A stretch of 64,000 nt of DNA from Branchiostoma floridae. Taxonomy: Eukaryota > Chordata > Leptocardii > Amphioxiformes > Branchiostomatidae. The translations under genes were made by a program, and so were the position numbers. The DNA lies in NCBI RefSeq assembly GCF_000003815.2, contig NC_049987.1:4117963-4181962 (forward strand). Direction: 5' to 3'. Shown piece by piece: positions 26,000 to 64,000 of the stretch. Within the stretch, counting starts at the first letter, position 1, and each line of letters opens with the position of its first letter. Below the pieces are notes generated by a model. The model saw only the letters and a list, made by a program, of their open reading frames with translations, did not search any database and was not told the DNA's origin.

Positions 26000-26698
26000 A
26001 CAACACGGTGTATTCCGTATCACCAGAGGTATCAGCCCGACCGCGGGAGGGCTGGGACCGAGGGTGATGCGGAATACACCGTGTTGCATTTTATTTATGT
26101 CATACCCACCTGAGAAAACCCATGTTTTGATGCGAAATGCGCCAGAAGTTGAACAAATGTGGTACCCCCTAACAAAAAGTGTTGCAACAGCAATGTTCCA
26201 ACGTCCGAATCAGGTATTCGAATTGTCAACCGTGCCGTATTCGGCCCGTTCGAAATGGTTCGATTTACTCGAAGAAAGCTTGTGTGATACGCCTTTCGAA
26301 CCTGTGAGATACGGAAGTTACGGCCCGGTCCGGAACACCCGTATCGAACGTTTTCGCATCACAGGTATGACATAAAATAAGCTTACCAATGCAAACAACC
26401 CCTGCGTCCTCATGGTGTCCACAGTCGTGAGTCTCCCAGCCGTTATGAGGGCAGTCAGACAGGTATTGCTCGTCCCCGTTACACATTACTTCGTCAAGAT
26501 AAATCCTTCCACTTCCCATCCCAAAATAGGCGTGCTTAGGCGCTTCCCAAGCACCGGAATATCCAAGCTGACGACACACAACTTCGGCATCATGTAGGTC
26601 CCACGAGTCGTCGCATACTGTCCCCCATGGTTCGTTCCACCATGGAGAAACCTCCACCCTACCCTCGTGTGGGCCTTTACCCCCGGCGAGACGGAGGT
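14548..26698 (-). CDS. SRCR-EGF-C-type lectin mosaic protein (gene model, 5' end missing)
   Basis: Thirteen minus-strand exons join in frame, 5' to 3': 26698-26387 SRCR; 25679-25587, 25236-25123, 24845-24732, 24280-24185, 23385-23272 and 22023-21910 EGF; 21681-21463 and 20312-20184 C-type lectin halves; 19537-19418 and 16187-16077 EGF; 15060-14980 and 14654-14548 half-EGF modules, ending in TGA. Every junction is phase 1 with AG/GT borders, which is classic exon shuffling of extracellular modules. The product should be secreted or the ectodomain of a surface protein, binding glycans or other ligands in the manner of SRCR and lectin immune or adhesion proteins (family inference). No transmembrane segment precedes the stop, so secretion is more likely. 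The signal-peptide exon and possibly more modules lie upstream and were not found. LINE, mariner-like and pogo-like insertions sit in the introns. Confidence 0.85.
14980..15060 (-). CDS. Exon: four-cysteine half-EGF module
   Basis: Acceptor gatttcag, then [20 protein letters not shown] and ISCLMP, then donor gtaagt. Cysteine spacing is 4, 5, 8 with a W-T-C signature shared with the terminal exon. The exon is in phase 1 at both ends. EGF cysteines 5 and 6 are absent. Confidence 0.75.
15640..15703. repeat. (AC)n microsatellite
   Basis: A CA run of about 30 units in an intron of the lectin gene. Confidence 0.97.
15735..15850 (-). mobile_element. LINE reverse-transcriptase C-terminal fragment between two CA repeats
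   Basis: The minus frame reads [20 protein letters not shown] and [19 protein letters not shown]. The RDL..G..L..A..DR..WR pattern is that of LINE ORF2 C-termini. It sits between CA microsatellites in the intron separating EGF exon 16187-16077 from exon 15060-14980. Confidence 0.6.
15857..15957. repeat. (AC)n microsatellite
   Basis: A CA run with periodic AAAC interruptions. Confidence 0.97.
16077..16187 (-). CDS. EGF exon (calcium-binding type)
   Basis: Acceptor ccttacag, then [20 protein letters not shown] and [18 protein letters not shown], then donor gtaggg. The DIDEC start is the calcium-binding EGF signature and all six cysteines are present. Phase 1 at both ends. Confidence 0.9.
16200..19400. 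other. Large intron of the lectin gene
   Basis: About 3.2 kb between EGF exons. It holds the GGCCGAAGTGTCC-rich element at 17984-18346, a GC-rich patch near 18800-18930 and otherwise AT-rich DNA. I see no further EGF exon. Confidence 0.5.
17984..18346. repeat. Element with repeated ACACTTCGGCC / GGCCGAAGTGT words at both ends
   Basis: Left part 17984-18055 carries ACACTTCGGCC-type words. Right part 18250-18346 carries GGCCGAAGTGTCC and related words four times in reverse orientation. The arrangement suggests a small inverted-repeat element with internally repeated ends. Target duplication unclear. Confidence 0.55.
19418..19537 (-). CDS. EGF exon
   Basis: Acceptor ctatcag, then [20 protein letters not shown] and [19 protein letters not shown], then donor gtacat. 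Non-calcium-binding type. The first intercysteine spacing is unusual because the cysteine before PNMC is not evident. Phase 1 at both ends. Confidence 0.8.
19890..19946. repeat. Short hairpin, 17-18-bp arms
   Basis: TTTTCTTCATGTCCGCC is mirrored by GGTGGACATGAAGAAAA about 20 bp later, with one mismatch. Confidence 0.7.
20184..20312 (-). CDS. C-type lectin domain exon, second half
   Basis: Acceptor ttgaacag, then [20 protein letters not shown] and [22 protein letters not shown], then donor gtatgt. The C..(14-20)..C...YVCE ending is the C-terminal half of a C-type lectin fold. The QPD/EPN and WND calcium-sugar motifs are missing or unrecognisable, so calcium-dependent sugar binding is doubtful. 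It joins the first half in phase 1 (A + AC = Asn). Confidence 0.75.
20606..21435. mobile_element. pogo/Tc1-like MITE, copy 2
   Basis: It starts CAGTCAAACCTGCCC and ends GGGCAGGTTTGACTG, flanked by TA/TA. Length 830 bp, with 'gaccacc'/'ggtggtcg' words in both arms. It lies in the intron that splits the lectin domain. Confidence 0.85.
21463..21681 (-). CDS. C-type lectin domain exon, first half
   Basis: Acceptor cttcaacag, then [40 protein letters not shown] and [20 protein letters not shown] to NDGAPIS. It has the expected C-Y-W-F start, the A..C..MGGHL helix region and the WIG strand. I chose donor gtgggt (phase 1), because the later gtatta donor would break the frame of the next exon. Confidence 0.85.
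21910..22023 (-). CDS. EGF exon
   Basis: [20 protein letters not shown] then [18 protein letters not shown], donor gtaagt, phase 1 at both ends. A calcium-binding-like EGF with all six cysteines. Confidence 0.9.
22174..23110. mobile_element. mariner-like non-autonomous element (TA target)
   Basis: It starts CGAGGGCGGTTCAAAAAGTA and ends in its reverse complement TACTTTTTGAACCGCCCTCG, with TA on both sides. Inverted similarity extends about 150 bp inward at each end. Length 937 bp, with no intact transposase. It lies in the intron between two EGF exons. Confidence 0.9.
23272..23385 (-). CDS. EGF exon (calcium-binding type)
   Basis: Acceptor ttttttttcag, then [20 protein letters not shown] and [18 protein letters not shown], then donor gtacat. 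The DVDEC start and F-N-E-V/G-Y-T-C pattern mark a calcium-binding EGF. Phase 1 at both ends. Confidence 0.9.
24185..24280 (-). CDS. EGF exon
   Basis: Acceptor ttcttacag, then [20 protein letters not shown] and [11 protein letters not shown], then donor gtaagt. A compact EGF with a short C3-C4 loop (NGR). Confidence 0.9.
24732..24845 (-). CDS. EGF exon (calcium-binding type)
   Basis: Acceptor gtgtcgcag, then [20 protein letters not shown] and [18 protein letters not shown], then donor gtacgg. Six cysteines, phase 1 at both ends. Confidence 0.9.
25123..25236 (-). CDS. EGF exon (calcium-binding type)
   Basis: Acceptor accttttag, then [20 protein letters not shown] and [18 protein letters not shown], then donor gtgagt. 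Six cysteines, phase 1 at both ends. Confidence 0.92.
25289..25396. mobile_element. Tiny hairpin element with 11-bp target duplication
   Basis: TAACAATATTT occurs at 25278-25288 and 25397-25407. Between them, AGCCTGGTATTATAGCTTCC..GAGTCTCT pairs with AGAGACTCGGGAGCTATAAT..TACCAGGTT. It is 108 bp long and almost entirely stem. Confidence 0.8.
25587..25679 (-). CDS. EGF exon
   Basis: Acceptor tttgaacag, then [20 protein letters not shown] and [10 protein letters not shown], then donor gtaagc. Non-calcium-binding EGF, phase 1 at both ends. It directly follows the SRCR exon. Confidence 0.9.
25745..25870 (+). other. Hammerhead-ribozyme-like core motif
   Basis: ATGATTCGCTGC is followed about 35 bp later by its exact complement GCAGCGAATCAT. 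Four bases on come CTGATGA, then a 5-bp stem (GGTCG/CGGCC), then GAAA. This matches stems I and II and the conserved core of a hammerhead, but I could not find stem III. It may instead be a retroelement motif that only looks like one. Confidence 0.35.
25947..25995. repeat. (TA)n microsatellite
   Basis: A pure AT/TA run directly before a MITE-A copy. Confidence 0.97.
25996..26374 (+). mobile_element. MITE family A, copy 1
   Basis: It begins with the hairpin ATACAACACGGTGTATTCCG..CGGAATACACCGTGTTGCAT, carries ATGTCATACCCACCTGAGAA, and ends GGTATGACATAAAATAA. The same order is seen at 61457-61834 and, partly, at 38710-39243, 59806-59960 and 61880-62180. The ORF across it is shared between copies but has no known domain. 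It ends about 13 bp from the SRCR exon donor. Confidence 0.75.
26387..26698 (-). CDS. SRCR domain exon (group A pattern)
   Basis: Acceptor ttcatag, then [60 protein letters not shown] and [20 protein letters not shown] to GVVCI, then donor gtaagc. It is a complete scavenger-receptor cysteine-rich domain of about 103 residues. It has six cysteines, as in group A, and lacks C1 and C4 of group B. One exon in phase 1, the usual layout for shuffled SRCR modules. Confidence 0.95.
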
Positions 26699-26799
26699 CT
26701 ATGAATACAATTGTAAGCGTTATAGTTCAAGTGAAATGAAATTTGCTCTATTGTTACCTTTGCCAGAATGGCTAATATTATGTTTTAGGCTTGTGCGTC

Positions 26800-39283: not shown

Positions 39284-39467
39284 CTTGAGTACAGCATGTG
39301 CTGTGAGGTGTGCTGCAGTTGTGTAGGACTGCCCCGTACGGAGCGAGTCCTGGTGGTGTAAGTACTCGATGGAAGACTTCTCCTTTTGCGCAAACGTCTC
39401 AAAGAACGGCAGGAGTTTCTCCGAGGTCACGCCCCTGGCATACGCTATCACCAGCAGGATATTCTTG
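39284..39467 (-). CDS. eIF4E-like exon, C-terminal part of fold
   Basis: Acceptor cttacccacgcag, then KNILLVIAYARGVTSEKLLP, FFETFAQKEKSSIEYLHHQD and SLRTGQSYTTAAHLTAHAVL K, then donor gtacgc. SIEYLHHQDS aligns with IMEYKTHTDS of 4EHP. It leaves phase 0, with the stop on a later unseen exon. Confidence 0.8.
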
Positions 39468-42400
39468 CTGCGTGGGTAAGACATGATAGGGCAAAATTTG
39501 ATTAGAGAACATCGCCACAATCTCACAAACGAACCAGAAAAAAACATACCGGTAGTCAACATCATCTAAGCATAATGTCAATGATCATATGTAAATGTGA
39601 AAGATGATTGATTTCTTAGCTCCATAGTGTTGCTGATATTAGGACAATTTAAACTACAAACTTTATATATGAATATGATGTAAATTTGCAACCATTATTA
39701 ATTGTTTTTTTAAAGGACAGCATCAGAAAATTTTCAATTCTTTATTTTCCAGTAGTTTACTCATTAAAAAGTTGATGTACGTCAATTTTTACATTCATCC
39801 GCCTAATATGACCCTGTAGACACGTTTGAACTTCGCGCTCTCCTCCTCTCCCCGCCGCGCTGGCCGATGACGTAATGGCCTCGTTCTGATCGTCTGAGAT
39901 TGTATGACGTCACGGATCAGAAACTTCTGGCCAGCCATTTTGCTTGGTGAAGCTCGGTCCTCTCTGCGGTATTAAAATAATCACCCCGCCATTCTGGAGT
40001 TCAGTTTGTTGTTGTTGAAAATTACTTTCGTGGACCTGTAAGTCGCATTGTGAGCTGTCTACGAAGCCATAGTCCCCGGGAGGCTGAACATGATAAGCTT
40101 GTCTGCGAGTAAACCGCGCGGCGACGGGACGAAATCAAAACAATGGTTTTGGGGGAGGTTCACGCACCGTGCCATTCTGGACTATTACAAGAGCGTGTTC
40201 GGGTCAGTTCTTACCTTCTCCTTTCCGGACAGCACAGCGATAATTACACGTAAGCTTCCACGAATTTTGGTTGAATTCACAGTTGTCCAACTGGCAGGGA
40301 CATTAAAAAAAAAACGTTTTCCCTCTGACAACATACCCTTGATCGCTACATATCGAACGACCCCCTTTTCGCGCCGAAACAGATAGCACCGCAACTTGTA
40401 CAGGTCGTGCGAATTACGCCTCGCCTCTCACTTTATTTTCTGTTTCTCGGGTAAATTATCTGGACTGGTCGGTTTTTCAATCATGTACTAGTAGCTTTGG
40501 TGGAGATTGCTGGGGGTAACCATTCAAAACAAATCACGGACTCTGAAACGAAGCCGACACTTCGCGCAGTTCACAATGCCGGCCTGTGTTGTATGTAAAA
40601 ACAACAATGCTGTATGTATGTTTTGGCGCGGAAGGGGGATCGTTCGATATGTTAGCGATCAAGGGTATGTTGTCAGAGGAAAAACGTTTTTTTTCAATGT
40701 CCCTGCCAGTTGGACAATTGTGAATTCAACCAAAATTCGTGGAAGCTTACGTGTAATTATCGCTGTGCTGTCCGGAAAGGAGAAGGTAAGAACTGACCCG
40801 AACTCGCTCTTGTAATAGTCCAGAATGGCACGGTGCGTGAACCTCCCCCAAAACCATTGTTTTGATTTCGTCCCGTCGCCGCGCGGTTTACTCGCAGACA
40901 AGCTTATCATGTTCAGCCTCCCGGGGACTATGGCTTCGTAGACAGCTCACAATGCGACTTACAGGTCCACGAAAGTAATTTTCAACAACAACAAACTGAA
41001 CTCCAGAATGGCGGGGTGATTATTTTAATACCGCTGAGAGGACCGAGCTTCACCGAGCAAAATGGCTGGCCAGAAGTTTCTGATCCGTGACGTCATACAA
41101 TCTCAGACGATCAGAACGAGGCCATTACGTCATCGGCCAGCGCGGCGGGGAGAGGAGGAGAGCGCGAAGTTCAAACGTGTCTACAGGGTCATATTAGGCG
41201 GAACAATGTAAAAAATTGACGTACATTAACTTTTTAATGAGTAAACTACTGGAAAATAAAGAATTGAAAATTTTCTGATGCTGTCCTTTAAGCCTAATGT
41301 TAGTGGTTTTATAATTATGTAACAAGTCATGTATTCTTCTCTCTCAGGTTAGCCCTTGGCAATAGCATAAAATGGCTAGTTGGGCAGCCCTGACTGTTTG
41401 CAAACAGCTGAACAGATAAATAAATAAAAATTAATACGATACTCTCGATTTGAAGCAAAAGTTTGGAGCAGCCAATTTAAACACCTTTACAGTATCACTA
41501 AAACACCAGGGCCTTTGGCTATATCAAAATGAACAATGATGATGTTCTCTTCATAAAGCATAAGTTTTTGATAGAAGAAACTTTGATTTGAAGCATGACT
41601 CACCAGATTGCGTAGTTTGCCAGGACATTTTCTTTATCACGTGTCCAGATGGCGACTCTGTCTCCTCTTTTCCTCTTAGACACAACTGGGCAGAAAATAA
41701 CAACAAAAAAGTCAACATGGCTGCACCCATAACGCATGGTTAAAACAAAACAGATTTTTTCTACAGAAAACTTGAAAACTTTTTTTTCTAGCAGGCATTG
41801 TTTCAAAACAAAGCAAAAATGACTTGAGTCATACCAGTGAACTTACTGTTGGGTAAAATTTTTATTGTAAAATCATTAAAAAATATTTGCATACTAACCT
41901 GCACCACAGATTTCATCAGAGAAAGCCATTTCATCTCCTATCAAGGCAAGAAGCTAGACAAGACAGAAAAAACAGGCAATCTGAGATGGCACACTTCACC
42001 CCCTTCATTTACATCAAAATCACACTGACATGCCTCAAAATATACTTCACGTTCTTTGAGTTGAAGTGAGAACAAGCATTAAGCATTCTCTGTTGTCAGT
42101 CTGTTTACTCCAAACAAGTGCTCACAGTTACCAAGTGACGTTACATGTAAAAAGTAGATTCTGATGAAGTACTAATAATGCATGTATTAGGCCAAATGTT
42201 AGGGCAAGGAGGTAAACTACATTGTAGCATATTGGTTGGGAAAAAATAATGAATTCAAAGTAGAAATGCGCTTAATATACATATCATTTTAAGTTTAAAA
42301 AAGCACACTGTCATAAAAATGTAAAGAATTAGGAATATGGTAGCCTTCAGGCCCCATATACCTTTCTACATTTATCTAGTAATACTAAGGCCACAGCAAG

Positions 42401-45400
42401 TAAATTTTATGGATGACATCCTCTACAGACTACCAAAATAGTGCGATAGGGAAAAAAACAAGATGGGTGAAAAAAAAACAAGATGGCAACATTTTCAAAA
42501 ATAGGCACCATAAAGTTGTGATGACTGTTGTAAAAAGAATTAAATCATATCAGAGCCAACAATGCATTCATTACTGTATTTAAGACATGTACTGGTGTGG
42601 TAAAAGTGACACTAGTGTAGACCAACAAAGTTGGTAACCACACTCATAGCTTCCATATTGGTGTCACTTTTACAACTATCCAATAAGTTTCATTTCTACA
42701 ACAGTTACTACAGTCCTTGGTATCTCACAAGCGTCACTTCAACAAGTACAATTATTAGGCTGCAACTCAATATATTTGCTCATTTTGGTACTTAATCGTC
42801 ATGTTGACCATCCCTGCAGAAGAAAAAAATTCTTGTTTTTTTTCTGAAATCAGGCAAAAATTAATGCGCTCGCTGATGTCATCCATAAAATTTACTTGCT
42901 GTGGCCTAACTGTAAATATATGATTGGAGAATGTACAGACTACTGGCATACCATTTCCAACCACAGACTGGCTACAAAGTCCATGTCGTTCCTGATAGTG
43001 ATGACCCACTTGCCTCCCTGTTTGTTAGCGTCATCCTCCCACATCGGCATGATCCCAACCTGTGGGAGGGGGGCAGAATAGCTGTGTCAGTGTAGGAATC
43101 CAGAGCTGTGCAAACCTGGTGCTGAAAATTTAAAAGTACCTTGAAATTCAAAACATCATGCTCTGCATGGTGATACAAGAATCTCTTAGACTAGTTAATG
43201 AAGACATTGTACTTGAGGTCGCATCAAATTTCCCTACTTCTCAGATTTTTGCAAGTTTGATGGAATACATACAAGTCATGTACCTTCCTTACCTCGAATA
43301 AATTCTATAAAATTGATGTTTCTTAGTAGGGGGTCGTATCAGTTCTGCATCACTTCAGCAAAATTTCCGTGAAACTTGTATGTTTCTTTGAATTCATTGT
43401 TGCTACTGTCAGTATACTCAGTAAATTATTCAATGTCTGTTTCTTAGTAGTAACTGTTACATAGTAGGCATCCTACGCTACAACGTAGTTGATAATATGA
43501 TAATATTACAATTTTGTATAATTATGAATTCTATAAAACCTTTGTGAATAATAAAAATAAATTTTAATAATCTTAAAACATTTCTGAATTCTAGAAAATT
43601 TGTGTTTCTTAGTGATGGATGCTCCAGACACCACTGAGTAACTGTTGATATTTATCTAACAGATAGACTACAGGGATCACAAGAGTTCATCAGGCAGACA
43701 GCCAATATGAACGCCCCCAGTCTGTCTGCCTGACAAGTATGGTATGAGTCATGCCGAAGGCCTTCACCTCAGCTGTTTTGTAGGTTAAATATAACTTTCT
43801 CTGGCCAAACAGTGCATGATTGAGGAGCATAAGTATGGCTGATGCAACAGTGGAAATTTTGTTGAACTCACAGCAATGTTGTCAAACCAATTGGGTATTG
43901 ATCAGTTGCACAGTATTTTCTAATCAATTTTCTGATGAAGACTTTTGAATAAAAGGTCGAAACCGGTAAACCGTTGTGTCTCAGCCGTCATCCTTCTGAC
44001 GCCTTATCGACCAGTATTTTCTAATCAAGTTTCACCAGACTGAAAGATGCAATTATTATATGCCATTGATATATTGCTTCAATGGAAAACATTTTACAGA
44101 AAAAGAGTTTAAGAGATTTTGCAGGGTTTGACAGGGGTTTATGGAAAACGCTGGGCTCCATAAACCTCTGGGCTAGGCTGTAATGGCTACCTAATAAAAT
44201 AATATGTATTTACAGAAAATTTGTAGTCATGTGCATTTTTCAACCATACCGGAAGACTTAGCGTATCTAAACACATTGTTGAAAAAACTTAACACGACTT
44301 ATTCCAAGTACAAAATTTTAAGTTTTAAATTCATAGACAAATAACATTGGCTACACAGTCTGACTGAAGAAAAAAAATCTAATTTCAGGTTTTCAAAAGT
44401 TGCTTACCCTGAAGAAGTGGTAGTTTGCATTGTTGTCCAGGTGATGTGCAGGTGCCAGGTGGTTGTACACCTGCCAGAAGCCTTCAATCTATTTGGTGAA
44501 CAATAGGTGTGGTTAACACAGCACTATATGGTAACCTGCCTAGACTAAGTGATAAGATCAGGCAAAGGCGCATGCAGCTCTCTGGCCACTATGTGCGACA
44601 CCCAGAACTAGTGGCAAATGAGCTGATCTTATGGGAACCGGTCCAGGGTAAAAGAAAACCTGGCAGGCAGAAAACCACCTTTATAGACACACTCAAGCGA
44701 GATTCCGGGCTCGACAAACTGAGCAGCACAGCTGAACTAAGTTCACTGATGAAGGATAGGGAGGAGTGGAGAAGGAGGGTCCAGCATGCTTCCCGTGTTG
44801 GCATCTGACGATGTCCTCGTCTGACTGACTGATCATGGGGTGACATCACAGATCAAGATACAATAAAGTTCTTCATTACATTCAACAATAGTAAGTATTT
44901 ATCATATAGCTAGGCAACATCAACCAATCATAAGGCCCTTTTAGATATCAAAAATGTGTTTGATTAAACGTATATGATAGAATGTGCAAAACTGATAACT
45001 CACTGTTTCTACAGCAGAGATTTCCAGCAGGTTTTCGTTGTAGTTGGTGAAATCTGACTTCATCCTCATGGATTTGTTTTCCCTCCTGTCATACCAGAAC
45101 CTCCTACAAGGAAATGTCACAACAAAACAAATGTCTAACATACTGTAAATGCATTTAAGTTTGAGGGCATTTAATTTCATGGTACTAGGGAGAAAATGGG
45201 GGGAGACGGGAAGAAGTCGGAACAAAAAATTTCACGGAGGTTTTGAGTTTGTGTAAACCACGCACATTAGCTATGAACATTCCTGATTTTACAGTATTTA
45301 CAGTTTAATACCTTTAGGCTACACCTATCTTATTTGTTGTTTCTCAGATTTCCCTACTCTATTTTTTCCGATTTGAAAAAAAAAAAAAATTCAAATTGAT

Positions 45401-48400
45401 GGCCACACCTCGTGTTGACAAACTTTCACTGCCTCTCCTTTCTCAAACTAACTATATATGGACCTCAAATTCCAGTAGCTGTACTTACCTGGACGGTACA
45501 TTTATCATTTTTCTTCAAACTTTGAACTTTGCTACCAGGGACCCCCTAAATGTTGAGATGTTGTTATTTATGTTGTGCAACTTGAGTATGCCCCTCGTTT
45601 TCTCCTTCTCCCGAATTTTTGCAAAAGTTTTTAAACATTTTTTTTGACCGACTGACCGACCCAATTTTTTCTGAAAAAATCCGAGAAACAACAAATAAAA
45701 TTGGTGTGGCCTTAGGACAAAACTTACGGTATCAATCAGATACTTAAAAAAGAAAATATGATAATTGAAAAAGTGGCAATGTTCACCATGTGTGCTGTAG
45801 AGGATGGTGTACTGATGTAGACACACTGGTGGTCTTGTGTTCAGTGTTGCTGGAGTTGACTATAGAATCTCTCTTTTTTTCTTTCACTTTTTCCCCTTGC
45901 TTCTGTTTGGTTGTTGTTGGTTCAGGAGACTGAAAATATTCAAAGTTGGATGCTTGAATGTGAAATATAACATTACAATTTTACATGAAATTTCAGTGAT
46001 TGCAAAAAAATGGAAAGTAACGTTATATGTCATAGAGTGAGAAAGCTTAATAACGATACTACATGTAAACAAAAGTACACACAGCACTTTTTTTTTACAT
46101 GTACAATTTCTACAACGATCCATGATTATAGTATTATTCAATTTTTAACATGACATGTACACGTAATACCCATTTGCACCAAATGTACACCCTTCTGCTC
46201 TTATTGGAAATTGCGACCCATCAAAATATCATTCTTCAGACTTGAGGGTTTTGTTACAAAGTAATCAAATTATGACTACCAATGATGTACAATAGAAATG
46301 AGAAGAACATATTGGAAATCATTACAATTTCATCAATCAGATGTTTGTCAGAGCAAAATCTGGCGTCCCTTGCCAACGCTAGAGGTTTGACCCCCCCAAA
46401 AAGGCTAGGGTCAGCAGATATTTGCAAGGGATGGTCGGGTGATTGGAATATTACATCATTTCTTTTCCTATGCCTTACCGGGAATTCTGCGACGTCTGAC
46501 TCTGGGATAGGGCTCATGGAGCCAGATGAGAGGCTACCGTCCAGCACATCGTCCAGACGGTTCCTGAGCTGGATTTCTGTGTCACTGGGAGGGCCATTCA
46601 GCTTAAAATCACCCTAGAAATAGATGAAGAGACATGGAGTTAGTACTAGACTCTAGAGTGAATTTAGTGATCATCCTTCAGAAAAATATAAATTAAACCT
46701 CCTTGAGAAATCATACCAGGAATTGAGAACAACTAAACTTAATCTTAGGCCAAACCAATTTAATTTCTTTGTTCTCGAATTTTTTCAGAAAAATATTGAG
46801 GCGGTCGGTCGAAAATTTTTTTTTCTAAAATGCAAAAAGTCTGTGGTGAACTTATATAACACAAAAAAACAAGGTAAGTAGTCAAGTTTTCAGCTTTTCA
46901 TGGCATGATTTATCCAATGAATATCTTCCTTTGATTTTATACCACTGTTCTGATCTGTGACTGCAAATAAGCGCTCTGATTGGTTTATCAGCAGTATGTG
47001 CCTCTGGAATGGTTTTTTTTTTATCATAGCAAAACCTATATTATTTTTCTTGGGACTAATTTTTTTTCCAAATCGAAAAAAAATAAGGTCGGGAAATCCA
47101 AGAAGCAACAAATTAAATTGGTGTGGCCTTACCAACACTGAAAATGATTGGGGTTTACCTGACAGAATGGACCCTTTACAACTAAATGCACTTTCAGATG
47201 TGACATTAGAGCCACATGATCGCAGCAATGGGCTGTAAATACTTAGATAACCTGTGTCGCCCCCCGTCTCTGTTCAAAATTACTTGAAGTGTAACATTGC
47301 ATTGTTTAGATAAAGTTAAGTCTGCGCTCAGACAAATTTCGTGCTGAGGCACAAGGTATCAAACTTCAGCATTGCTACTATGAAATGAACAATATTTAAT
47401 TATTGATGTCAACAATAGAATAGCAATCTCAACTACATTGTATAGACTAAGTAACTTACCTCCTGTGACAGTTCTGAGGCACTGGAGTAGCCAACATTTG
47501 GGTTCTGGTGTCCAAAGGGACCCTGACCTTGTTGGCCACTTCGACTTCTGGAAAACAGGAATCAAACTGGTGTTTAGAGTGGTACATGTACTTAGACTAC
47601 TATTACTCATACTCCAGAACTTAGAAAAGATAATGTCCTGATTCCCAGGCCTGGGATGCCTGTAATGTCCGTATGCAAATGCAGGGCTTGAAATACTATT
47701 TTCTGCATACCTGCACTGGTGCAGGTAACATTGAAAATTACCAGACATGCACCAGACAAATTTTACCTGCATCACTGTGAATTTAGGAAGGAAAGCAGCT
47801 CATAACAATCCACATACACCTATCATTGGACACTTATGTATGAAACCCAGTACATGGACCAGTGCAGGTTAGGTGCAAATTATCGACACCAGAAATACCT
47901 GCACAGCTGCAGTTTTACCTGCACTAACCTGTATATGCAGGTGGTATTTCGAGCCCTGATTTACAATATGGTGACTGATGGTTAAATTTTGTAGTTGAAA
48001 TGGATGAAAATTGATGAACGCAAGGATGTATATATAATCGAATCAACTTTGGCCTACTTGAGTACATTGTATATCATCTCGGAAAGTCACCAACACAATC
48101 ATCGAAAATACAAATTACAATACATGATCAAATGGAGGAAAGCAGAAGAAAGTTGATTACCGTCTTCGGTTGCGTCGGTTCCTTTTCCTATTGCGGCTGC
48201 GACTGCGAGGGCCAGGGTGTGTTCTGATTGGGTAGAAACAGACTCTCATTACTTCTCAGTTATTGTATCACAAAACATGCAATTTCTATCAATAAATAAA
48301 ATTATGATATTTCATTTAGTTAGGACCATCATTCCATTTGATGATGGTAATTTCATCTTTGATTTATGTACATCTCATAGTATATTAACATGCAATTGAC

Positions 48401-51400
48401 ATAGCCCCATGGTGTTTGGCAGAAAAATAGTGCGTTGTGTTGTGAGTTGTGTTTTCTTTTCTTTTTCTAAAATATTTTAATCCTGAAAACAGTCAGAACC
48501 ATATAAGCTATTTTGGAAGAGATATTGTTATCTCCTGATGTATATCGTATATGATGCAGGAATACATGGGCGGGTGTGGTGCAAATTCCACAGCTGCCAG
48601 AGAGTCAAGAACTACATGTACCAAACTGGTCTGCTAACGGACCCTTTTTCTCGCCTGGCAAACCTATCCACTTTGCCACAACTTCGTCTCCAAGACAGTC
48701 CTTACCTACAGTTTACAAGTTTGAAAAAAGGTACCCAACATCATAGCCCACAGTACATACACAAAAAAAAATCATGGGTCTTATCATTAGTGGCAAGTGT
48801 GCAGATGTTAACACACTGGCAGCACCAGTTTTTGGCACCTTTAGACAGTTTAGCCGTGAGGCTCGGTGGGCGTCACTCCACCGTCATGGGGGCAGGGCGA
48901 GTTTAGAACTCAGGACCTTCTGATTCTGACTCCAACACTCTAGCCGTTGCGCCACACAGACACCCCCACAGCATGCACAAAGACCATGATAATCACTCAG
49001 TTGAATCAGAACTGACTCTTGTTCTAATCTGTTTGGATCTACTTCTGATTTGCCCTCTGACCTGTCGTCGTACAGACTGCCGTTACTGTCTGTCCTGTGC
49101 CACTGAGGTGGCCGATTGGTGCAGTAGGAACGAGACGACTGGGTGGATCCGACCGACGAGACACTGTCACGACTAGGACTCCGCACCAACCCAGGCCGCT
49201 TAAACATCCACAGACTTACACACAACAGGTACAGTAGGCAGGAGGAAGGGACAGGAAGGTAGAGATACAAAAAATCATGAGACAAAATGGACAGTTGAGC
49301 AGAATGCCAAAGAATCAATAAAAAGAAACAGAAAGATCATCACAAAAAGGAAAGGCAGAGAGGCAGTAAAGTAAAAAACAAACAGAAATAGACAAGAAAA
49401 TATCTGATATACATGACTTAGGTTCAAGAGCTTAAAAGTTTTCAATAAACAAAAATAATAAAGAAATCTACTGAAAAGGAAAGAGCGACAGAAATCGAGA
49501 AACCAAATGCCCCCGAAATAGAGTAAAGCTAAAGCTAAGGATTTACTTACAGTAGATGTATGTACACTGAGAAAGCTATGATTTAGATAAATTTATAAAA
49601 TTGTACCTTGCAGACCCGGATCCAGAGTCCTCTGGCTGAGACAGATACATCCTGTCGTCCTGGAAGGACGTCCTTCGCGGGAATCCATCCCAAGACTCGA
49701 TGGAATCTCTCCTTCCAATCTTCGGCCTGTGTTCCTTGGCGGTTTGGCGCGCCAGTTCCCGTTGCAGGTCCGACGAAAGCTTCTTGGGCAGACTGTTGGA
49801 GTTCCTTGGGTCGGTGGGGAGTTGGTCGGTGACGGTGTCCCACGTGCTCCAATTCTCTGCTGTTGTCCTTTGAGGAAACGTGCTCCAGAACTCGCCAGAC
49901 GGGAAGGTGAAGTCGTCGTCAGAGTCTACTTCAGACGAGCGGCGAGACGAGCTTCCTACGGATTCCGCGTAGTTAATCCTGGGCCAGTTCAGGTCTGCAG
50001 CGAAGGGGAGGGGCGGGCCATTACGCGACGGCGGACGGGATGGGGGGCGGGAGTTTGGGCGGGAAGACGGGCGCGATGAAGGGCCGAAGCTATCGAGAGA
50101 CTCAATAGAGCCTTGTCGTGACAACGGTCGGCTCGGCGGACCCTTCTTCCAGTTGCTCTCCCAAAACTGTGGCGGTCCGTTTCGTGAGGGTGGACGGGAG
50201 TTCGGCCGAGATGATGGCTGACAGTAGCTGTCTACGGACTCCATGGAGCCTTGGCGAGAGATTGGTCGACTGGGCGGGCCTCGATAACGAGATTTCTTAT
50301 TATCCATGTTATAGTGTTGGAGAGGGCCGTTCCGTGACATTGGCCTGGACGGAGAACCCCAGGAGCTATGATTGTCATCGTAGTAGAAATCTTGTGGGGG
50401 CCCATTCCGAGACTGTGGTCGGGAGGGGGGTCGAGAGTTTGGCTTGGAGCCTGGAGCCCTGGCGTATCTATCTAACGATTCTACAGAACTCTGTCGTGAC
50501 GTCTGCCGGTTGTCCCGCTGCCTGTTGTCGTAGTGCCCTTTCCTGTGGTCGCGTTGCGAGCGCTGCGAGTGCATCGAGCTACGAGAAGAGATGCTCTCTT
50601 GGCTCTCGCTGCTGACCATGCCTCCGCGTCCGCGACTGCCCCTACCCGGGCGGATGTTCTTACGTACTTCGACAGAGTCTTCTTGAATATACTTCCTCGG
50701 TTTCCTGTAGTTATCCTGCTTGTGTTTGTCTGTTGGCATGTCTCCCCAATGGTGTGCCTTTCCTTTCTGAGGCCCCCTATCATCTCCCATGGGGTACTGC
50801 AGCTCTTCCAGTCCTTGGGGCTCCTCTTCATACCAAGACTTACTAGGCTGATCTGGAGTGTTCTCCTTCTCATTAAAATCTATCTGTTCATCAAACGTGT
50901 TTGGTGACTTGGAGGACACCTCCTGGTTCTTATTTTCCTCCTTGCTATAAGGATCGTCTTTTTTCTTAGCCGTATAAAATTTTTGAGTCTCCCTTCGAGA
51001 GGGACTGTCTGTTTCTCTCCTATGTTTGCTACTTTTTTTGGACTCGGTGAGGCTCTCTTTGCTGGGAGACTTTTTGGGTTGGCTCCGAGGCGTCTTTTCT
51101 AACCTGAAGTCTGAATCCGACCTGAATCTATTGACTCTCTTGTCCCCGGATCTAGAGCTGTCTGTAGAGGTGTGACTATCCGATCGTCGTCTTCCTGGCT
51201 TGTCAAGTCTCGTTGAGCTATTCCATGGTTTTTGTACGTTGTGACTCTGAACTCTCCCCGACGAAACATCCCTCTTTCCGGGTTCAGCCTTTTTGTCTTT
51301 CCCGGCGCTTTGATTTCCTACTTTTGACCCTTTTTGGGTTCTATCTCGAGATTTACCCGGTTTCTTATCCACTTTGGCAAGCTCTATTCTATTGTAACTG

Positions 51401-51623
51401 ACAAATGTATCTTTGGTATCGATGCTATTGGCCGTTGATTTAGAACTTGAGGACAACGGTTCCGAGTCTTTAGTAGGTTTTTTCCGTTCCTTGCTGAGCT
51501 TGCTCAGCCATTTCGGACGTTTAGGCACTTCTGGGCGCTTTGAAGGTTCTGACGAAATCCTCTGAGAGGAGGGTTGACTTTCTTCACCTTTAGCCATCTT
51601 CTTAGACATCGAAAATTGGAAGT
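39284..51623 (-). CDS. 4EHP-like eIF4E-family protein with long Ser/Arg/Pro-rich N-terminus (gene model)
   Basis: Minus-strand exons: 51623-49607, 49566-49551 (microexon, tentative), 49198-49062, 48223-48161, 47547-47460, 46614-46480, then 45103-45004, 44488-44408, 43059-42952, 41953-41899, 41685-41604, 39467-39284. The first six encode about 810 low-complexity residues. The last six encode an eIF4E fold: FWYDRR, IEGFWQVYNHL, GIMPMWEDDANKQGGKW, LLALIGDEM, EICGAVVS, RVAIWT. Relative to human eIF4E, Trp102, Glu103, Trp166 and the binding-partner Trp73 are present, but the Trp56 position is Tyr, as in 4EHP/eIF4E2. It should bind capped mRNA and act as a translational repressor-type factor (family inference). 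The 46480/45103 junction is out of phase, so an exon encoding the HPL start of the fold is missing. The final exon with the stop was not found. The RNA-binding role of the N-terminus is a guess. Confidence 0.8.
39714..41287. mobile_element. 1.57-kb near-perfect palindromic element, TTAA target duplication
   Basis: Arms 39714-40376 and 40621-41287 are almost exact reverse complements of about 660 bp, around a spacer of about 245 bp. The ends read AGGACAGCATCAG, flanked by TTAA on both sides, a target like that of piggyBac-type elements. Each arm is GC-rich in its middle and contains the same open frame (MISLSASKPRGDGTKSKQWF...), unlike any family I know. The spacer holds MPACVVCKNNNAVC. It lies in the intron between exons 41604 and 39467. 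Confidence 0.9.
41604..41685 (-). CDS. eIF4E-like exon with Trp166-equivalent
   Basis: Acceptor ttctgcccag, then VSKRKRGDRVAIWTRDKENV and LANYAI, then donor gtgagt. RVAIWT carries the Trp that contacts the cap methylguanine in eIF4E. Confidence 0.9.
41899..41953 (-). CDS. eIF4E-like exon
   Basis: Acceptor cttgtctag, then LLALIGDEMAFSDEICGA, then donor gttagt. It joins the next exon in phase 1 to form EICGAVVS, a 4EHP-like spelling. Confidence 0.9.
42389..42906. mobile_element. PIF/Harbinger-like MITE (TAA target)
   Basis: GGCCACAGCAAGTAAATTTT at 42389 has its exact complement at the other end (42875-42906), with TAA on both sides. 518 bp, with a smaller inner hairpin at 42606-42676. It ends 45 bp from the donor of exon 43059-42952. 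Confidence 0.85.
42952..43059 (-). CDS. eIF4E-like exon with cap-binding Trp-Glu
   Basis: Acceptor cctcccacag, then VGIMPMWEDDANKQGGKWVI and TIRNDMDFVASLWLEM, then donor gtatgc. MWED is the cap-stacking Trp and guanine-pairing Glu of the family. Confidence 0.95.
43690..43733. repeat. Short hairpin TCAGGCAGACAG / CTGTCTGCCTGA
   Basis: Perfect 12-bp arms around a 20-nt loop in an intron of the eIF4E-like gene. Confidence 0.8.
43911..44033 (+). mobile_element. 79-bp insertion flanked by 22-bp direct repeats
   Basis: CAGTATTTTCTAATCAATTTTC (43911-43932) recurs at 44012-44033 with one mismatch. The segment between reads TGATGAAGAC..AGGTCGAAACCGG and on. With the preceding C it spells CTGATGA-stem-GAAA, a hammerhead-like core. 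The layout is that of a short retrotransposed piece with target duplication. Confidence 0.6.
44408..44488 (-). CDS. eIF4E-like exon with partner-binding Trp
   Basis: Acceptor caccaaatag, then IEGFWQVYNHLAPAHHLDNN and ANYHFFR, then donor gtaagc. The VETIEGFW junction matches the VEDFW helix that binds eIF4G/4E-BP-type peptides. Confidence 0.92.
44509..44808 (+). mobile_element. LINE ORF2 C-terminal fragment, intact frame to stop
   Basis: LYGNLPRLSDKIRQRRMQLS, GHYVRHPELVANELILWEPV and GKRKPGRQKTTFIDTLKRDS, ending REEWRRRVQHASRVGI and stop. A typical non-LTR reverse transcriptase tail (RR..L.GH.xR, G+.+.GR, W..RV). The 5' part is missing. It is inserted antisense to the host gene, starting about 20 bp upstream of an acceptor. 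Confidence 0.8.
45004..45103 (-). CDS. eIF4E-like exon with Tyr at the Trp56 position
   Basis: Acceptor ccttgtag, then RFWYDRRENKSMRMKSDFTN and YNENLLEISAVET, then donor gtgagt. FWYDRR aligns with FWYSRR of 4EHP. The Tyr in NYNENL takes the place of the cap-stacking Trp56, as in 4EHP. The exon needs a phase-2 partner upstream, which exon 46614-46480 is not. Confidence 0.92.
45317..45711. mobile_element. PIF/Harbinger-like MITE (TTA target), copy 1
   Basis: GGCTACACCTATCTTATTTG..at the left mirrors AAATAAAATTGGTGTGGCC at the right, flanked by TTA. 395 bp, no ORF. Sister copy at 46748-47128. Confidence 0.8.
46480..46614 (-). CDS. eIF4E-like gene, N-terminal region exon
   Basis: Acceptor tatttctag, then GDFKLNGPPSDTEIQLRNRL, DDVLDGSLSSGSMSPIPESD and VAEFP, then donor gtaagg, phase 0 at both ends. 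Acidic/Ser-rich, with no domain. Confidence 0.75.
46748..47128. mobile_element. PIF/Harbinger-like MITE (TTA target), copy 2
   Basis: GGCCAAACCAATTTAATTTC at the left pairs with AAATTAAATTGGTGTGGCC at the right, flanked by TTA. 381 bp. Short ORFs across both copies (RPHQFxLLxLGF) are repeat-derived, not a gene. Confidence 0.85.
47460..47547 (-). CDS. eIF4E-like gene, N-terminal region exon
   Basis: Acceptor ttttccag, then SRSGQQGQGPFGHQNPNVGY and SSASELSQE, then donor gtaagt. Frame chosen because it is the only one joining both neighbours in phase. Confidence 0.75.
47682..47958. mobile_element. hAT-like MITE
   Basis: CAGGGCTTGAAATAC at the left and GTATTTCGAGCCCTG at the right. Interior CCTGCAC/GTGCAGG words repeat in both arms. 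277 bp. A clear 8-bp target duplication is not visible. Confidence 0.65.
48161..48223 (-). CDS. eIF4E-like gene, Arg-rich exon
   Basis: Acceptor tacccaatcag, then THPGPRSRSRNRKRNRRNRR, then donor gtaatc. A strongly basic RS-type stretch, 63 nt, phase 2 at both ends. It may be a nuclear-localisation or RNA-contact patch (inference). Confidence 0.75.
48893..48962 (-). mobile_element. tRNA-derived SINE head
   Basis: The minus strand reads TGTGTGGCGCAACGGCTAGA then GAGTTCTAAACTCG, resembling Pol III A and B boxes at tRNA-like spacing. The sequence is too diverged for a real tRNA. Confidence 0.6.
49062..49198 (-). CDS. eIF4E-like gene, Ser/Arg-rich exon
   Basis: Acceptor atgtttaag, then RPGLVRSPSRDSVSSVGSTQ, SSRSYCTNRPPQWHRTDSNG and SLYDD, then donor gtcaga (a weak but usable donor). 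It enters in phase 0 and leaves in phase 2. Confidence 0.7.
49551..49566 (-). CDS. Candidate 16-nt microexon of the eIF4E-like gene
   Basis: Between acceptor ctttctcag and a strong donor gtaagt lie 16 nt that complete a split Ser codon and add VHTST. It converts the phase-2 end of exon 51623-49607 into the phase 0 needed by exon 49198-49062, which cannot otherwise join in frame. The upstream intron would be only 40 nt, unusually short. Skipping both introns lets the large exon read on to a stop (ending INLSKS). Confidence 0.55.
49607..51623 (-). CDS. eIF4E-like gene, large N-terminal exon (SR/SRPP-rich, 667 codons)
   Basis: Starts at ATG 51609, 14 nt after acceptor ttatcattacag: MSKKMAKGEESQPSSQRISS. 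Residues about 10-260 are Lys/Ser-rich with many SR and RR pairs. About 290-340 form a basic G/R patch (RPGRGSRGRGG). About 380-540 hold repeats of SRPxSRNGPP and SRP(I/L)SRQGS(M/I)ES(V/L)DS. The end is acidic/aromatic (FTFPSGEFWSTFPQ) and then RRDSIESWDGFPRRTSF. There is no folded domain; it is predicted disordered and heavily phosphorylatable. An upstream coding exon in phase 1 is possible because the frame stays open 5' of the ATG. Confidence 0.85.
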
Positions 51624-51719
51624 CTGTAATGATAAAAAAAAATAACAACTTAAGGGTAACATTTGCATAATAATGTTAAGCTTCATATGGTCTAGTCTTA
51701 CAGTTACAAACTACTACTG

Positions 51720-53400
51720 TTAGTTCTTACACATTCGTAGTATATAGATATTCAAATTAAATTAGACATCCATGTATATACATGTAGGCAATTCATTGTA
51801 TACACTTGTTTGTTCACTAATACATGTATATACAATCATGTATCTGTAGCAGAAGTCACTGTACCTTTATAATTTGTTATGTCAATAAAGATTTTTATTT
51901 CCTATATACACGTACTAGTACTAGTATGGTGACCAGCCCCTCCAGCTCTGTCCTGCCACTTGCTACACAATGTAATTGAAGGCCATACGTTGTCTGCTGC
52001 TAAATTAGTACTAGCTACCATAGCAGAAGCCATCTGGTCCTGTCACCGTCCTGGTCATTTCAATAAGTGTGGTGGATTCTTTTTCTTCTTACATGTATAA
52101 TGTTTCATTGTTTGATCGAGGTGTGGCTCTCCTCAAAGTCAAACAAGCTTATTAGGGACCTACATTCATAGAATGATCGATAGGAAAAAAATAATACATT
52201 GACTTGCTTTAGTGGGCTGTAATTCTCTGGCAGCCATTTTTTTTCATCAGTAGTACAACAACAAAGACCAAAGTTCAATAGGTCTTCGGGTCAACATTTT
52301 GTAAGTTTGCAACAGTCATTGAGTTTTGATTATGATTCATAAGGACAAATTCCTCAATAAGTGGGAAACAGTCATGTCAAGCTACAATAATATTCTCTTT
52401 TTGATATGATAAATTGTTACCTGGTCCTAGTCTACATTGAAATTCTGGGCAGCTGTGTACCATATTATAGGTGAGGTACCATACAGAAACACAAACAAAA
52501 AAAATGTATGTTTTTCCCTATTGAGGAAAACATATTACAAAAATGGATAAGATTATAACAGAGGTAATATTATAAGGGCAAACAATTTCAATTCTGCAAG
52601 GCTGGTGCCAGGGAAAAATGATAGGACTGAACAGGAGCTGGAATAGGAAGAATATGTGATTCTGAGGCACAATTTTTGTGACCACTATATGATACTGTCT
52701 CTGATCTTCATACCAATGTGAATGATAAGACTGGTAATACTAGTACTAGTACTGTAATCTGTTACTGTAATCTGGTAATACTGTCTGTAAATATACATAA
52801 AGTCACTCGGCCCCGCCCACCTAGACCCAAATGTAAAATGCTCACACAAAAGAATTGAAATATACACAATGAAAGATCTTCTCTGGGACTTGATACAATA
52901 ACATACTAATTACTGTACACATAATACAATCTTGAGTAATAAAACAATACCTACAGTAACACAATTGTAAAATGTTGATCAATTTTTTTCTATGATCTTA
53001 AATTGCTAGATTGAACAACTATTACAAATAAACATAAAATTGTGCTATCTTGTATGTATATCATATGACAATGATTCTTCAGATTTGTTTTCAGTGAGGC
53101 TCGAAACAAAACAACAAACAAAACAAAAACTACTCAAAATTTGCAAATCATTAAATTCTGTTACAACTTTGCAACAATGTTCTTCTCCATTTTCTCCCAG
53201 CCTTTTCTAATCTGTCTAGAGAACAAAATCCCGGCCAATATCATTGCCACTGTTTCTATTCCTGGTGCCCCCGACCCAACTCAACTGACATGTTTCAAAT
53301 ACCATCTCTAGTTCCCACCCAACTCATATAACACAAACCCCCAAACTTCACAACTTTCCCAATCACCAAATTCTAATCATACAAAAAAATATGTAATGAA
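51720..53400. other. Probable 5' intron of the eIF4E-like gene
   Basis: AT-rich sequence with scattered ACTAGT/TACATGTA words and no supported coding exon. Confidence 0.4.
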
Positions 53401-53423: not shown

Positions 53424-53700
53424 CGTAGAAAAATGGGCTTAAAATATGACAGAAGACAACGTAGATTCCGCAAAAGAAGATTTTCAGGCACGCCGGTTGG
53501 TGGGAGACTTCCAAAAATGGTATCAACACATGCAACACCAAGGGAGGGGTGTGTTCCGAATATTTCGGTTCCAAACTTTCAAAAAAACACCGAACCAGAG
53601 TCAGCAATTTTGTTGGCTATGGGATGAAATCATGGTTTGGTAGCGGCTACGTCTTAAGGCGAAGATCCGGGCTGTTTCCTTGGAGTTTGAAGCTTAAAGT
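53424..53700 (-). other. Possible 5' non-coding exon of the eIF4E-like gene
   Basis: A strong minus-strand donor (ctac/gtgagtatt) at about 53424 lies 1.8 kb upstream of the large exon, next to the likely promoter. The exon start cannot be fixed. Confidence 0.35.
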
Positions 53701-54108
53701 TGCGGCGACAAAAAGACATGACAGAGACGTGACGGGCGGTTGCTAAAAATGGGGGATGCCCTTTTGGACAACTTGTCATGACGTCATCCTTCACTTTCCA
53801 CAAAACTTTTCGTAAACAACTCAACATTAAAGAATCAAAGTACATTTTCCTATCGTAAAGAATGCGATATTGTAAAATATTAAACAATGGTTAGTATTTG
53901 TATCTTTTTCCACTCATTGTTTTAGATATATTCTTTTTAATATCTGTAATTTATTTCCCATCATCCTCATCGAGAAAATCAAAACAAGATGGCGCTGTCC
54001 ATCGAAAAAAAATCGGTTCTCTGGTATTTTTCTTGATTTCTGTCTTGTGGACGTCGTAAACTCCTTTCCAGTTCGATGCATCTTAAGAGAACTGACTGAG
54101 GGAAAATC
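53700..54108. promoter_or_regulatory. Likely bidirectional promoter: CRE and YY1-type site
   Basis: The palindromic cAMP-response element TGACGTCA is at 53779-53786. CAAGATGGCGCT at 53985-53996 matches the YY1 site often found just downstream of transcription starts of housekeeping genes. The region separates the minus-strand eIF4E-like gene from CCDC174, whose ATG is at 54109. No TATA box is evident. Confidence 0.55.
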
Positions 54109-62912
<8,804 letters not shown>

Positions 62913-63063: not shown

Positions 63064-64000
63064 CTAATTAATCAACCTCTGATTCATCTGTTCCTTAAGC
63101 TCAAAATAGAAATTTGCTTTTGAGTAATCACCAAGGTCTTTCCAGGTAGTGCGCAGATTGTTAAGTACAACTGCAATGTGAGGATGTGCAGTGTCCTCAC
63201 CATAGATAGTCCGCATCATCTGTAGTGATTGTTCATAATATACGGTTGCCTTTCTGTAATCACCAAGGTAACTCCAGGCCTTACCCAAGTTGTTAAGTGA
63301 GTTTGCAATGTCAGGATGTGCAGTATCCTCACCATAGATAATCCTGTACATCTGTAGTGATTGTTCATAGTAGCTGATGGCCTTTCTGTGATCACCAAGG
63401 TCACTCCAGGCAGCACCCAAGTTGTTAAGTGAGTTTGCAATGTCAGGATGTGCAGTGTCCTCACCATAGATAATCCTCTTCATCTGTAGTGATTGTTCAT
63501 AGTAGCTGATGGCCTTTCTGTCATCACCAAGGTCACTCCAGGCATTACCCAAGTTGTTAAGTGAGGAAGCGATGTCAGGATGTGCAGTGTCCTCACCATA
63601 GATAATCCGCCTCATCTGTAGTGATTGTTCATAGTAGCTGATGGCCTTTCTGTGATCACCAAGGTTCCTCCAGGGACCACCCAAGTTGTTAAGTGAGGAG
63701 GCGATGTCAGGATGTGCAGTATCCTCACCATAGATAATCCGCCTCATCTGTAGTGATTGTTCATAGTAGCTGATGGCCTTTCTGTGATCACCAAGGTCAC
63801 TCCAGGCGGCACCCAAGTTGTTAAGTGAGTCTGCAATATCAGGACGTGCAGTATCCTCACCATAGATAATCCGCCTCATCTGTAGTGATTGTTCATAGTA
63901 GCTGATGGCCTTTCTGTGATCACCAAGGTCACTCCAGGCGGCACCCAAGCTATTCAAAGAGTCAGCAATGTCAGGATGTACAGTATCCTCACCATGGATA
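63064..64000 (-). CDS. Kinesin-light-chain-like tetratricopeptide repeat protein, 3' part
   Basis: An open minus frame runs from the window edge to TAG at 63064, over 300 codons. It is a tandem array of 42-residue TPR units (LNNLGAAWSDLGDHRKAISY / YEQSLQMRRIIYGEDTAHPD IA), about seven copies with a period of 126 nt and very high identity between units. This is the TPR_12 type of kinesin light chain and of the nephrocystin-3/NACHT-TPR-like proteins expanded in lower deuterostomes and cnidarians (family knowledge). It acts as a protein-binding scaffold; any N-terminal effector domain lies off-window. The last unit is degenerate (LRTTWKDLGDYSKANFYFEL) and caps the solenoid before LIN. No intron is seen. 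It lies antisense, 300 bp after CCDC174 exon 6. Confidence 0.9.
   Translation of the reverse strand, partial: IHGEDTVHPDIADSLNSLGAAWSDLGDHRKAISYYEQSLQMRRIIYGEDTARPDIADSLNNLGAAWSDLGDHRKAISYYEQSLQMRRIIYGEDTAHPDIASSLNNLGGPWRNLGDHRKAISYYEQSLQMRRIIYGEDTAHPDIASSLNNLGNAWSDLGDDRKAISYYEQSLQMKRIIYGEDTAHPDIANSLNNLGAAWSDLGDHRKAISYYEQSLQMYRIIYGEDTAHPDIANSLNNLGKAWSYLGDYRKATVYYEQSLQMMRTIYGEDTAHPHIAVVLNNLRTTWKDLGDYSKANFYFELKEQMNQRLIN

Follow-up and report, generated by a model that had tools for sequence, protein, structure and literature searches.

A predicted third eIF4E paralogue of the lancelet Branchiostoma floridae, with its core probably joined to an 855-residue Ser/Arg/Pro-rich tail

The question raised by a stretch of 64,000 nucleotides (nt) of Branchiostoma floridae DNA (RefSeq assembly GCF_000003815.2, contig NC_049987.1, positions 4,117,963 to 4,181,962; hereafter the window) is whether its minus strand encodes a single protein in which a core of the eIF4E family follows a very long Ser/Arg/Pro-rich tail, or two genes lying side by side. 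A minus-strand frame is open there for 1,065 residues over twelve exons (A-D and F-M) with GT-AG sites, and we regard as probable, although well short of certain, an explanation in which a third eIF4E paralogue is made by one intron-bearing gene, with a cap-binding core C-terminal to an 855-residue tail and the mechanism proposed below. The limits of 51,623 and 39,284 given by an earlier note on this DNA both fall at splice-like sites (acceptor TTACAG/ACTTC at 51623 and donor TCAAG/GTACGC at 39284, a slash marking the exon boundary here and below), and its linking of a large Ser/Arg/Pro-rich exon and RS-type exons to an eIF4E core through splice phases is borne out: the eleven junctions, of phases 2, 2, 2, 0, 0, 2, 0, 0, 0, 1 and 2 in this order, are all in frame. 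The N-terminal part, put at 810 residues in that note, amounts to 855, with 769 residues in exons A-D and 86 in F-G, and HPLQ, the start of the eIF4E core, lies at residue 856. The frame of exon A is 699 codons long from stop to stop (51,675 to 49,576, minus strand), with an ATG at 51,609. The exons are as follows.

49607-51623, minus strand: exon A, 667 Ser/Arg/Pro-rich codons that include SRPxS repeats and, four times, the motif R-x-x-S-[IVM]-E-S-x-D, ending in phase 2; acceptor percentile 0.992, donor percentile 0.883 (weak)
49062-49214, minus strand: exon B, rich in Ser; its acceptor is uncertain, placed at 49214 by eye and at 49094 by the scorer described below, with the frame unchanged
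48161-48223, minus strand: exon C, the arginine-rich RS-type stretch RTHPGPRSRSRNRKRNRRNRRR, in frame, its first and last codons split with its neighbours; acceptor and donor percentiles 0.963 and 0.935
47460-47547, minus strand: exon D, RSRSGQQ to ASELSQE, ending in phase 0; acceptor percentile 0.992, donor 1.000 as printed
46479-46613, minus strand: exon F, linker from GDFKLNG to VAEFP, phase 0 to phase 0; acceptor and donor percentiles 0.993 and 0.997
45787-45929, minus strand: exon G, linker to HPLQHT (HPLQ motif) plus two bases of the W43 codon, with no Met
45004-45103, minus strand: exon H, RFWYDRR to ISAVET, with Y56
44408-44488, minus strand: exon I, IEGFWQVYNH to FFR, with W73
42952-43059, minus strand: exon J, VGIMPMWEDDANK to WLEM, with W102, E103, K112, L131 and E132
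41899-41953, minus strand: exon K, LLALIGDEMAFSDEICGA
41604-41685, minus strand: exon L, VVSKRKRGDRVAIWTRDKENVLANYAI, its first codon split with K, with R157, R162 and W166
39284-39467, minus strand: exon M, the C-terminal part, containing IEYLHHQDSLRTGQSYTT; it is spliced at 39284 or, with this last donor unused, closed by the TAG at 39,266-39,264

An alternative acceptor inside exon M was not preferred, as it lowers the Pfam score from 167.4 bits for the chosen junction to 164.2 (a difference of -3.2). An open stretch between D and F (47150-47273, minus strand, beginning TGGDTGYLSIYSPLLRS, with an acceptor and a donor of its own) was rejected as a coding part of the long form since, although it can follow D, it leads to a stop in F. 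It could be a truncating alternative exon, through this early stop, or nothing.

The family of the C-terminal part is clear. With the C-terminal 296 residues, Pfam returned one family, IF4E (PF01652; 6.4e-49, 166.2 bits at a cut-off of 28.7, profile positions 1-148 of 158), and the top nine matches in the PDB are class I eIF4E and 4EHP proteins (6.8e-35 to 3.1e-34), with eIF4E type 3 at 1.5e-21. Seven of the eight family tryptophans are present (W43, W46, W73, W102, W113, W130 and W166) and W56 is replaced by Tyr; E103 is present as well, and positions 112, 157, 159 and 162 are Lys, Arg, Arg and Arg. Pfam and the alignment together confirm the eIF4E core that had been described earlier, with Tyr at the W56 position and W73, W102, E103 and W166 intact. 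Two of the residues kept, E103 and W166, are described as invariable in all eukaryotes studied (PMC11791286). At 21 pocket, tryptophan and dorsal positions the differences from human eIF4E-1 are W56Y, V69I, R112K, K159R and K162R. No kind of contact is lost from the pocket, in which Tyr stands in for one of the stacking Trp residues as it does in 4EHP, so that it likely binds the cap, and the binding is predicted to be weaker. On the dorsal face, eight of nine positions (37, 38, 40, 69, 73, 131, 132, 135 and 139) are those of human eIF4E-1, the exception being V69I, and positions 131 and 132 hold the Leu/Glu pair of human class I, where human 4EHP has Glu/Asn. We take positions 37, 38, 40, 131, 132, 135 and 139 to be contacts of this face. 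V69 and W73 are given as dorsal contacts of YxxxxL partners in PMC1260017. The predicted dorsal face thus looks fit for YxxxxL partners of the eIF4G/4E-BP type.

The assignment of this core to a class is more complicated. Class I is defined by Trp at both W43 and W56 (PMC1260017); here W43 is kept and W56 is Tyr. Class II, according to the same 2005 source, has Tyr, Phe or Leu at W43 and Tyr or Phe at W56, with W43 kept in fungal class II; here Tyr56 fits and position 43 is Trp. The revised 2024 definition of class II combines Tyr or Phe at W56 with a change of R/K162 to Ile, Val or Leu (PMC11791286), and position 162 is Arg here. The class III pair, Trp at W43 and Cys or Tyr at W56 (PMC1260017, Joshi et al. 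2005), is the one found, and this W43 and Tyr56 combination is shared with eIF4E3; the match to the solved eIF4E3 structure (1.5e-21, compared with about 1e-34 for the best class I and 4EHP entries) is however weaker, which argues against class III clustering. Likeness to class I comprises W43, L131/E132, a basic residue at 162, the eIF4G/4E-BP-contact residues and three introns, while the window gene differs from it in Tyr56, in eight extra residues in the loop before Tyr56 and in the 855 residues that precede the core, where class I has a short tail. The label "4EHP-type" of the earlier note was rejected, since human 4EHP has Tyr43, Glu/Asn at 131/132 and Ile162 where the window core has the class I-like W43, Leu/Glu and Arg, and since a separate genuine 4EHP lies elsewhere in the genome; what is 4EHP-like is confined to Tyr at W56, Lys at 112, the longer loop before Y56 and one intron place, VET/IEGFW. 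Once this label falls, the designation "repressor" no longer follows.

The genome searches, which covered 513,431,437 bases in 431 contigs, place the gene among its paralogues. A search for the Pfam family gave nine exon matches (20 candidates scored): one in the window, two at a place on C12, three on C3 and one at each of three further places. The C12 place (18.45 Mb) is 4EHP, 84% identical to the human protein over 123 columns, and the C3 place is eIF4E-1, 79% identical to human over 136 columns. A search with the core itself, in which 14 candidates were scored and 10 matches listed at E up to 1, returned its own exons together with the C12 4EHP and the C3 eIF4E-1, the best paralogue exon being of 4EHP (41 bits, 4.2e-8), followed by eIF4E-1 (34.1 bits, 5.3e-6), and no second copy of the core was found in it. 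Over aligned columns, the identity of the core with eIF4E-1 is 45% for the genome's own protein and 46% for the human one, with 4EHP it is 39% (own) and 40% (human), and with fly eIF4E 43%; this ranking of class I over 4EHP is not firm because the structure search scores them alike and the best paralogue exon is that of 4EHP. The window gene would thus be a third eIF4E lineage, neither eIF4E-1 nor 4EHP, which we leave unclassified, slightly nearer class I on the sequences compared.

Divergent eIF4E-like stretches occur at three places (C12:14.35, C18:8.04 and C18:5.16 Mb), one of which entered the alignment. The divergent stretches are L012 2603-3159, L013 4126-4455 and L014 6675-6800; the L012 and L013 matches run through intron places of eIF4E-1 or 4EHP, as in retrocopies, and L014 is weak and has an internal stop. 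At the own eIF4E-1 (L011 5253-5638), the beginning of the GVEPMWED exon is present in four consecutive copies at spacings of 70, 146 and 146 nt; the first copy breaks off, and the next two enter a short simple repeat read as CVCVCV. At the own 4EHP (L010 5420-5630), the exon end GEQFMVGEEICGAVISIRFQ is duplicated just downstream.

The intron positions, compared by eye with those of the own eIF4E-1 and 4EHP, bear on the origin of the core. Three introns match the own eIF4E-1 in place and phase, two of phase 0 at FFR/VG and LEM/LL and one of phase 2 in the codon that follows ANYAI; the intron VET/IEGFW (phase 0) stands at the place of one in the own 4EHP, and the W43 intron, of phase 2 as in eIF4E-1, is shifted downstream by one codon. 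Nothing in the own eIF4E-1 corresponds to the K-L intron, and the eIF4E-1 introns in FWA and after GYQ are missing here. Introns common to paralogues mean that the window gene is not a retrocopy; owing to the same comparison, exons H-L are well supported and M less so. The W43/W56 rule does not class animal eIF4Es cleanly, the core having the class III pair, an identity and dorsal face nearer class I, and one intron place of 4EHP.

The tail preceding this core is as large and as Ser/Arg-rich as was first proposed, both in composition (855 residues with 17.7% Ser, 11.0% Arg, 9.5% Pro and 8.1% Lys) and in motif counts. The counts were compared with 300 shuffles each, using self-written patterns, the last of which were composed after reading the sequence, so the excess is partly chosen: SRPxS occurs 11 times (0.27 expected), R..S[IVM]ES.D four times (0.00 expected) and RxxS/T 33 times (21.0 expected), SR/RS dipeptides are modestly above what composition predicts (43 vs 33.5), and SP/TP is under expectation (9 vs 17.9). 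The R..S[IVM]ES.D motif resembles basophilic kinase sites. Single matches were obtained to a YxxxxL-type motif (YNRIELA at residue 72, 0.12 expected; weak, with Ala at the hydrophobic place) and to a TOS-like pattern (FDEQI at residue 239, 0.02 expected), and there were none to the one PAM2 pattern used, L[NP]..A..F.P. Exons C-D encode the arginine-rich stretch RSRSRNRKRNRRNRRRSRSG; such stretches can bind RNA or direct nuclear import, and this one appears to be of that kind. The tail is probably disordered, to judge from its composition. No Pfam family was found in the 769-residue protein of exons A-D at E up to 5, and exon A gave no match in the PDB at E up to 1, four pattern matches and no relative in a scan of viral contigs, and only itself in the genome search made with this exon (6 candidates, 6 scored).

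Whether tail and core belong together was assessed by small-scale dynamic programming over splice-site and codon scores, blind to homology; a generic metazoan consensus supplied the splice matrices, and the codon scores were trained on 1,181 codons taken from exon A, from the core and from a TPR frame in the same window. Thirty-seven decoys were used, 36 from overlapping stretches of the window and one the reverse complement of the tested region. Between a fixed exon A and a fixed exon H acceptor, the chain scores 295.2 bits at an exon cost of 8, which none of the 37 decoys reaches (maximum 274.8), and 315.2 at an exon cost of 4 (decoy maximum 289.1). At exon costs of 4, 8 and 10, exons C, D, F and G are recovered at their hand-set boundaries and B with a later in-frame acceptor; at 12 only D and a shortened F are retained, and at 0 G is shortened and one exon added. 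The donor of D and the acceptor of F, which join tail to linker, are among the strongest sites, and both are of phase 0. From splice sites, phase and gene-model scoring we infer, with good confidence, that one long transcript carries both tail and core.

Several points weigh against this. Training on exon A makes the scorer favour Ser/Arg-rich exons, and some sites are weak (donor of A, 0.1 bits; acceptors of B, -2.4, of I, -1.1, and of G, -0.3); exon G has a coding score of -2.8, and a coding signal is lacking in K (-1.0) and M (0.8). A two-gene model left unanchored scores 305.2, 297.2 and 289.2 bits at boundary costs of 0, 8 and 16 and an exon cost of 8, against 295.2 for one gene, and 325.2, 317.2 and 309.2 against 315.2 at an exon cost of 4. 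An ATG at 48249 lies in the bin 48001-48400, where the ratio of observed to expected CpG (CpG o/e) is 0.87, and the Met of exon F, 54 residues before HPLQ, could start an eIF4E of ordinary size. Finally, the function proposed for the tail is read from its motifs.

The unanchored scores, in which two genes do better than one at boundary costs of 0 and 8, argue for a pair of neighbours, one encoding a Ser/Arg-rich protein that stops short of about 45.7 kb and the other an eIF4E equipped with a first exon of its own. Read through its weak donor, exon A stops after INLSKS, and the minus strand has ATTAAA at 48481, 47400, 46764, 45309 and 45175, although no AATAAA is found on that strand between 51899 and 41866. 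This split, however, ends the tail gene inside exon G, starts the second gene at 45508 and drops the HPLQ exon, which homology demands. Exon G was anchored because it encodes HPLQ and carries two bases of the codon for W43, and since it has no Met, some upstream exon is required; with this anchor and a boundary cost of 0, one gene scores better than two at exon costs of both 8 (305.1 vs 301.3, a difference of 3.8 bits) and 4 (321.1 vs 317.3). Two separate genes are thus improbable in our estimation.

The best anchored split starts at ATG 48249 and leaves exons C, D and F with eIF4E, and it leads to another alternative, in which the long fusion exists or existed, and the main product is a smaller eIF4E, ordinary or RS-tailed, made from an internal Met through an alternative first exon, with two isoforms or promoters. 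This split is just 3.8 bits below one gene, the 54 residues between the Met of exon F and HPLQ equal a usual tail length, and the CpG o/e of 0.87 would suit a second promoter; but that bin has only 35% G+C and the other 18 of the 19 bins from 41201 to 48800 have values of 0.18-0.69, the Met of exon F has T at -3, and a start in F leaves the strong phase-0 donor of D and acceptor of F unused. We hold this variant to be doubtful, if less so than two unconnected genes. For the single long gene, a start region may be placed upstream of exon A, where CpG o/e is 0.84-1.18 in the bins of 53601-55200 (1.04 in 53601-54000) and 0.00-0.38 in the four bins of 51601-53200:

53425-54000, minus strand: possible promoter and 5' untranslated exon region, CpG-rich, with the candidate donor CTAC/GTGAGT and the putative exon end at 53425

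This donor scores 1.5 bits, is the sixth of twelve printed between 51630 and 54300 and was picked for its location. On the plus strand, an ATG followed by GGTAAGT at 54109-54150 has the appearance of a first coding exon, belonging to a divergent neighbour with which the CpG-rich region would be shared.

The intron between exons L and M is for the most part filled by a repeat.

39710-41291, no strand assigned: recent palindromic repeat element, not part of the protein

Its arms comprise 537 nt that are 98% complementary and 81 nt at 99%. Among the 41 genome-wide matches listed for an arm (235 candidates, 40 scored) are its own two arms, 38 matches at 95-96% and one at 89%, and the palindrome is a young fold-back repeat family. 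Six further inverted pairs occur among the arm matches listed.

This young insertion would also suit a decaying or divergent eIF4E pseudogene with a frame open by chance, as would the two core exons without coding signal and a Pfam match that ends short of most of the C-terminal exon. A frame open over 12 exons, conserved introns and pocket residues that are either conserved or conservatively changed speak against such decay, which we consider highly improbable. Elsewhere on the minus strand, neighbouring frames lie at 63067-63999, 26268-26726, 23213-23767 and 15991-16287, with a TPR-repeat frame at the right edge of the window and SRCR and EGF domains (Pfam) on the left.

Long N-terminal extensions are not without precedent in the family, and the "new architecture for this family" of the earlier note is too strong in view of the accounts of trypanosomatid eIF4E3 and eIF4E4 (PMC6379680) and of Drosophila eIF4E-7 (PMC3382400). 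The extension of Leishmania eIF4E4 is reported in the former to be disordered and multiply phosphorylated and to bind PABP1 via PAM2. The window gene resembles these trypanosomatid proteins in its long N-terminal extension and differs in its animal-like core and in a tail without a match to the PAM2 pattern; Leishmania eIF4E4 is the nearest working model, and for want of a PAM2 match the partner of the tail would probably differ from PABP1. The nearest animal case found in the literature, as far as the account in PMC3382400 goes, is Drosophila eIF4E-7, of 301-458 residues, without introns in the core region, for which an origin from eIF4E-1 by retroposition has been proposed. It shares the enlarged N-terminal part and is class I-type, but it is under half as long, whereas the window gene shares the introns of its paralogues. 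No eIF4E with such an SRPxS tail on an intron-bearing animal gene was found in open-licence PMC titles and abstracts; an existing annotation is possible.

In the mechanism that we propose, the core would hold the 5' cap, probably more weakly than eIF4E-1 given Tyr for Trp56, and would offer its class I-like dorsal face to YxxxxL-type partners of the eIF4G, 4E-BP or 4E-T kind. The tail, of low complexity and probably unfolded, would serve as a platform on which basophilic phosphorylation motifs are clustered, its arginine-rich stretch may bind RNA or partner proteins, and kinases would thereby decide which messenger ribonucleoprotein particles the cap-holder joins. A bolder version, which seems to us unlikely as a whole, sees an unclassified animal eIF4E lineage with a scaffold of its own: the phospho-regulated SR-type tail, with a YxxxxL-like site in YNRIELA at residue 72, would take over in cis the part that eIF4G or 4E-T plays in trans and tether capped mRNAs in granules under kinase control or in specific translation programmes. 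For eIF4E, a small and much-studied translation factor, deletion work has placed the function in the core and not in the tails (PMC1260017). If transcripts confirm the join, a small translation factor would here have become a large regulated scaffold and, if this is true, the animal paralogue would provide a natural test of a cap-binder acting as its own regulated scaffold.

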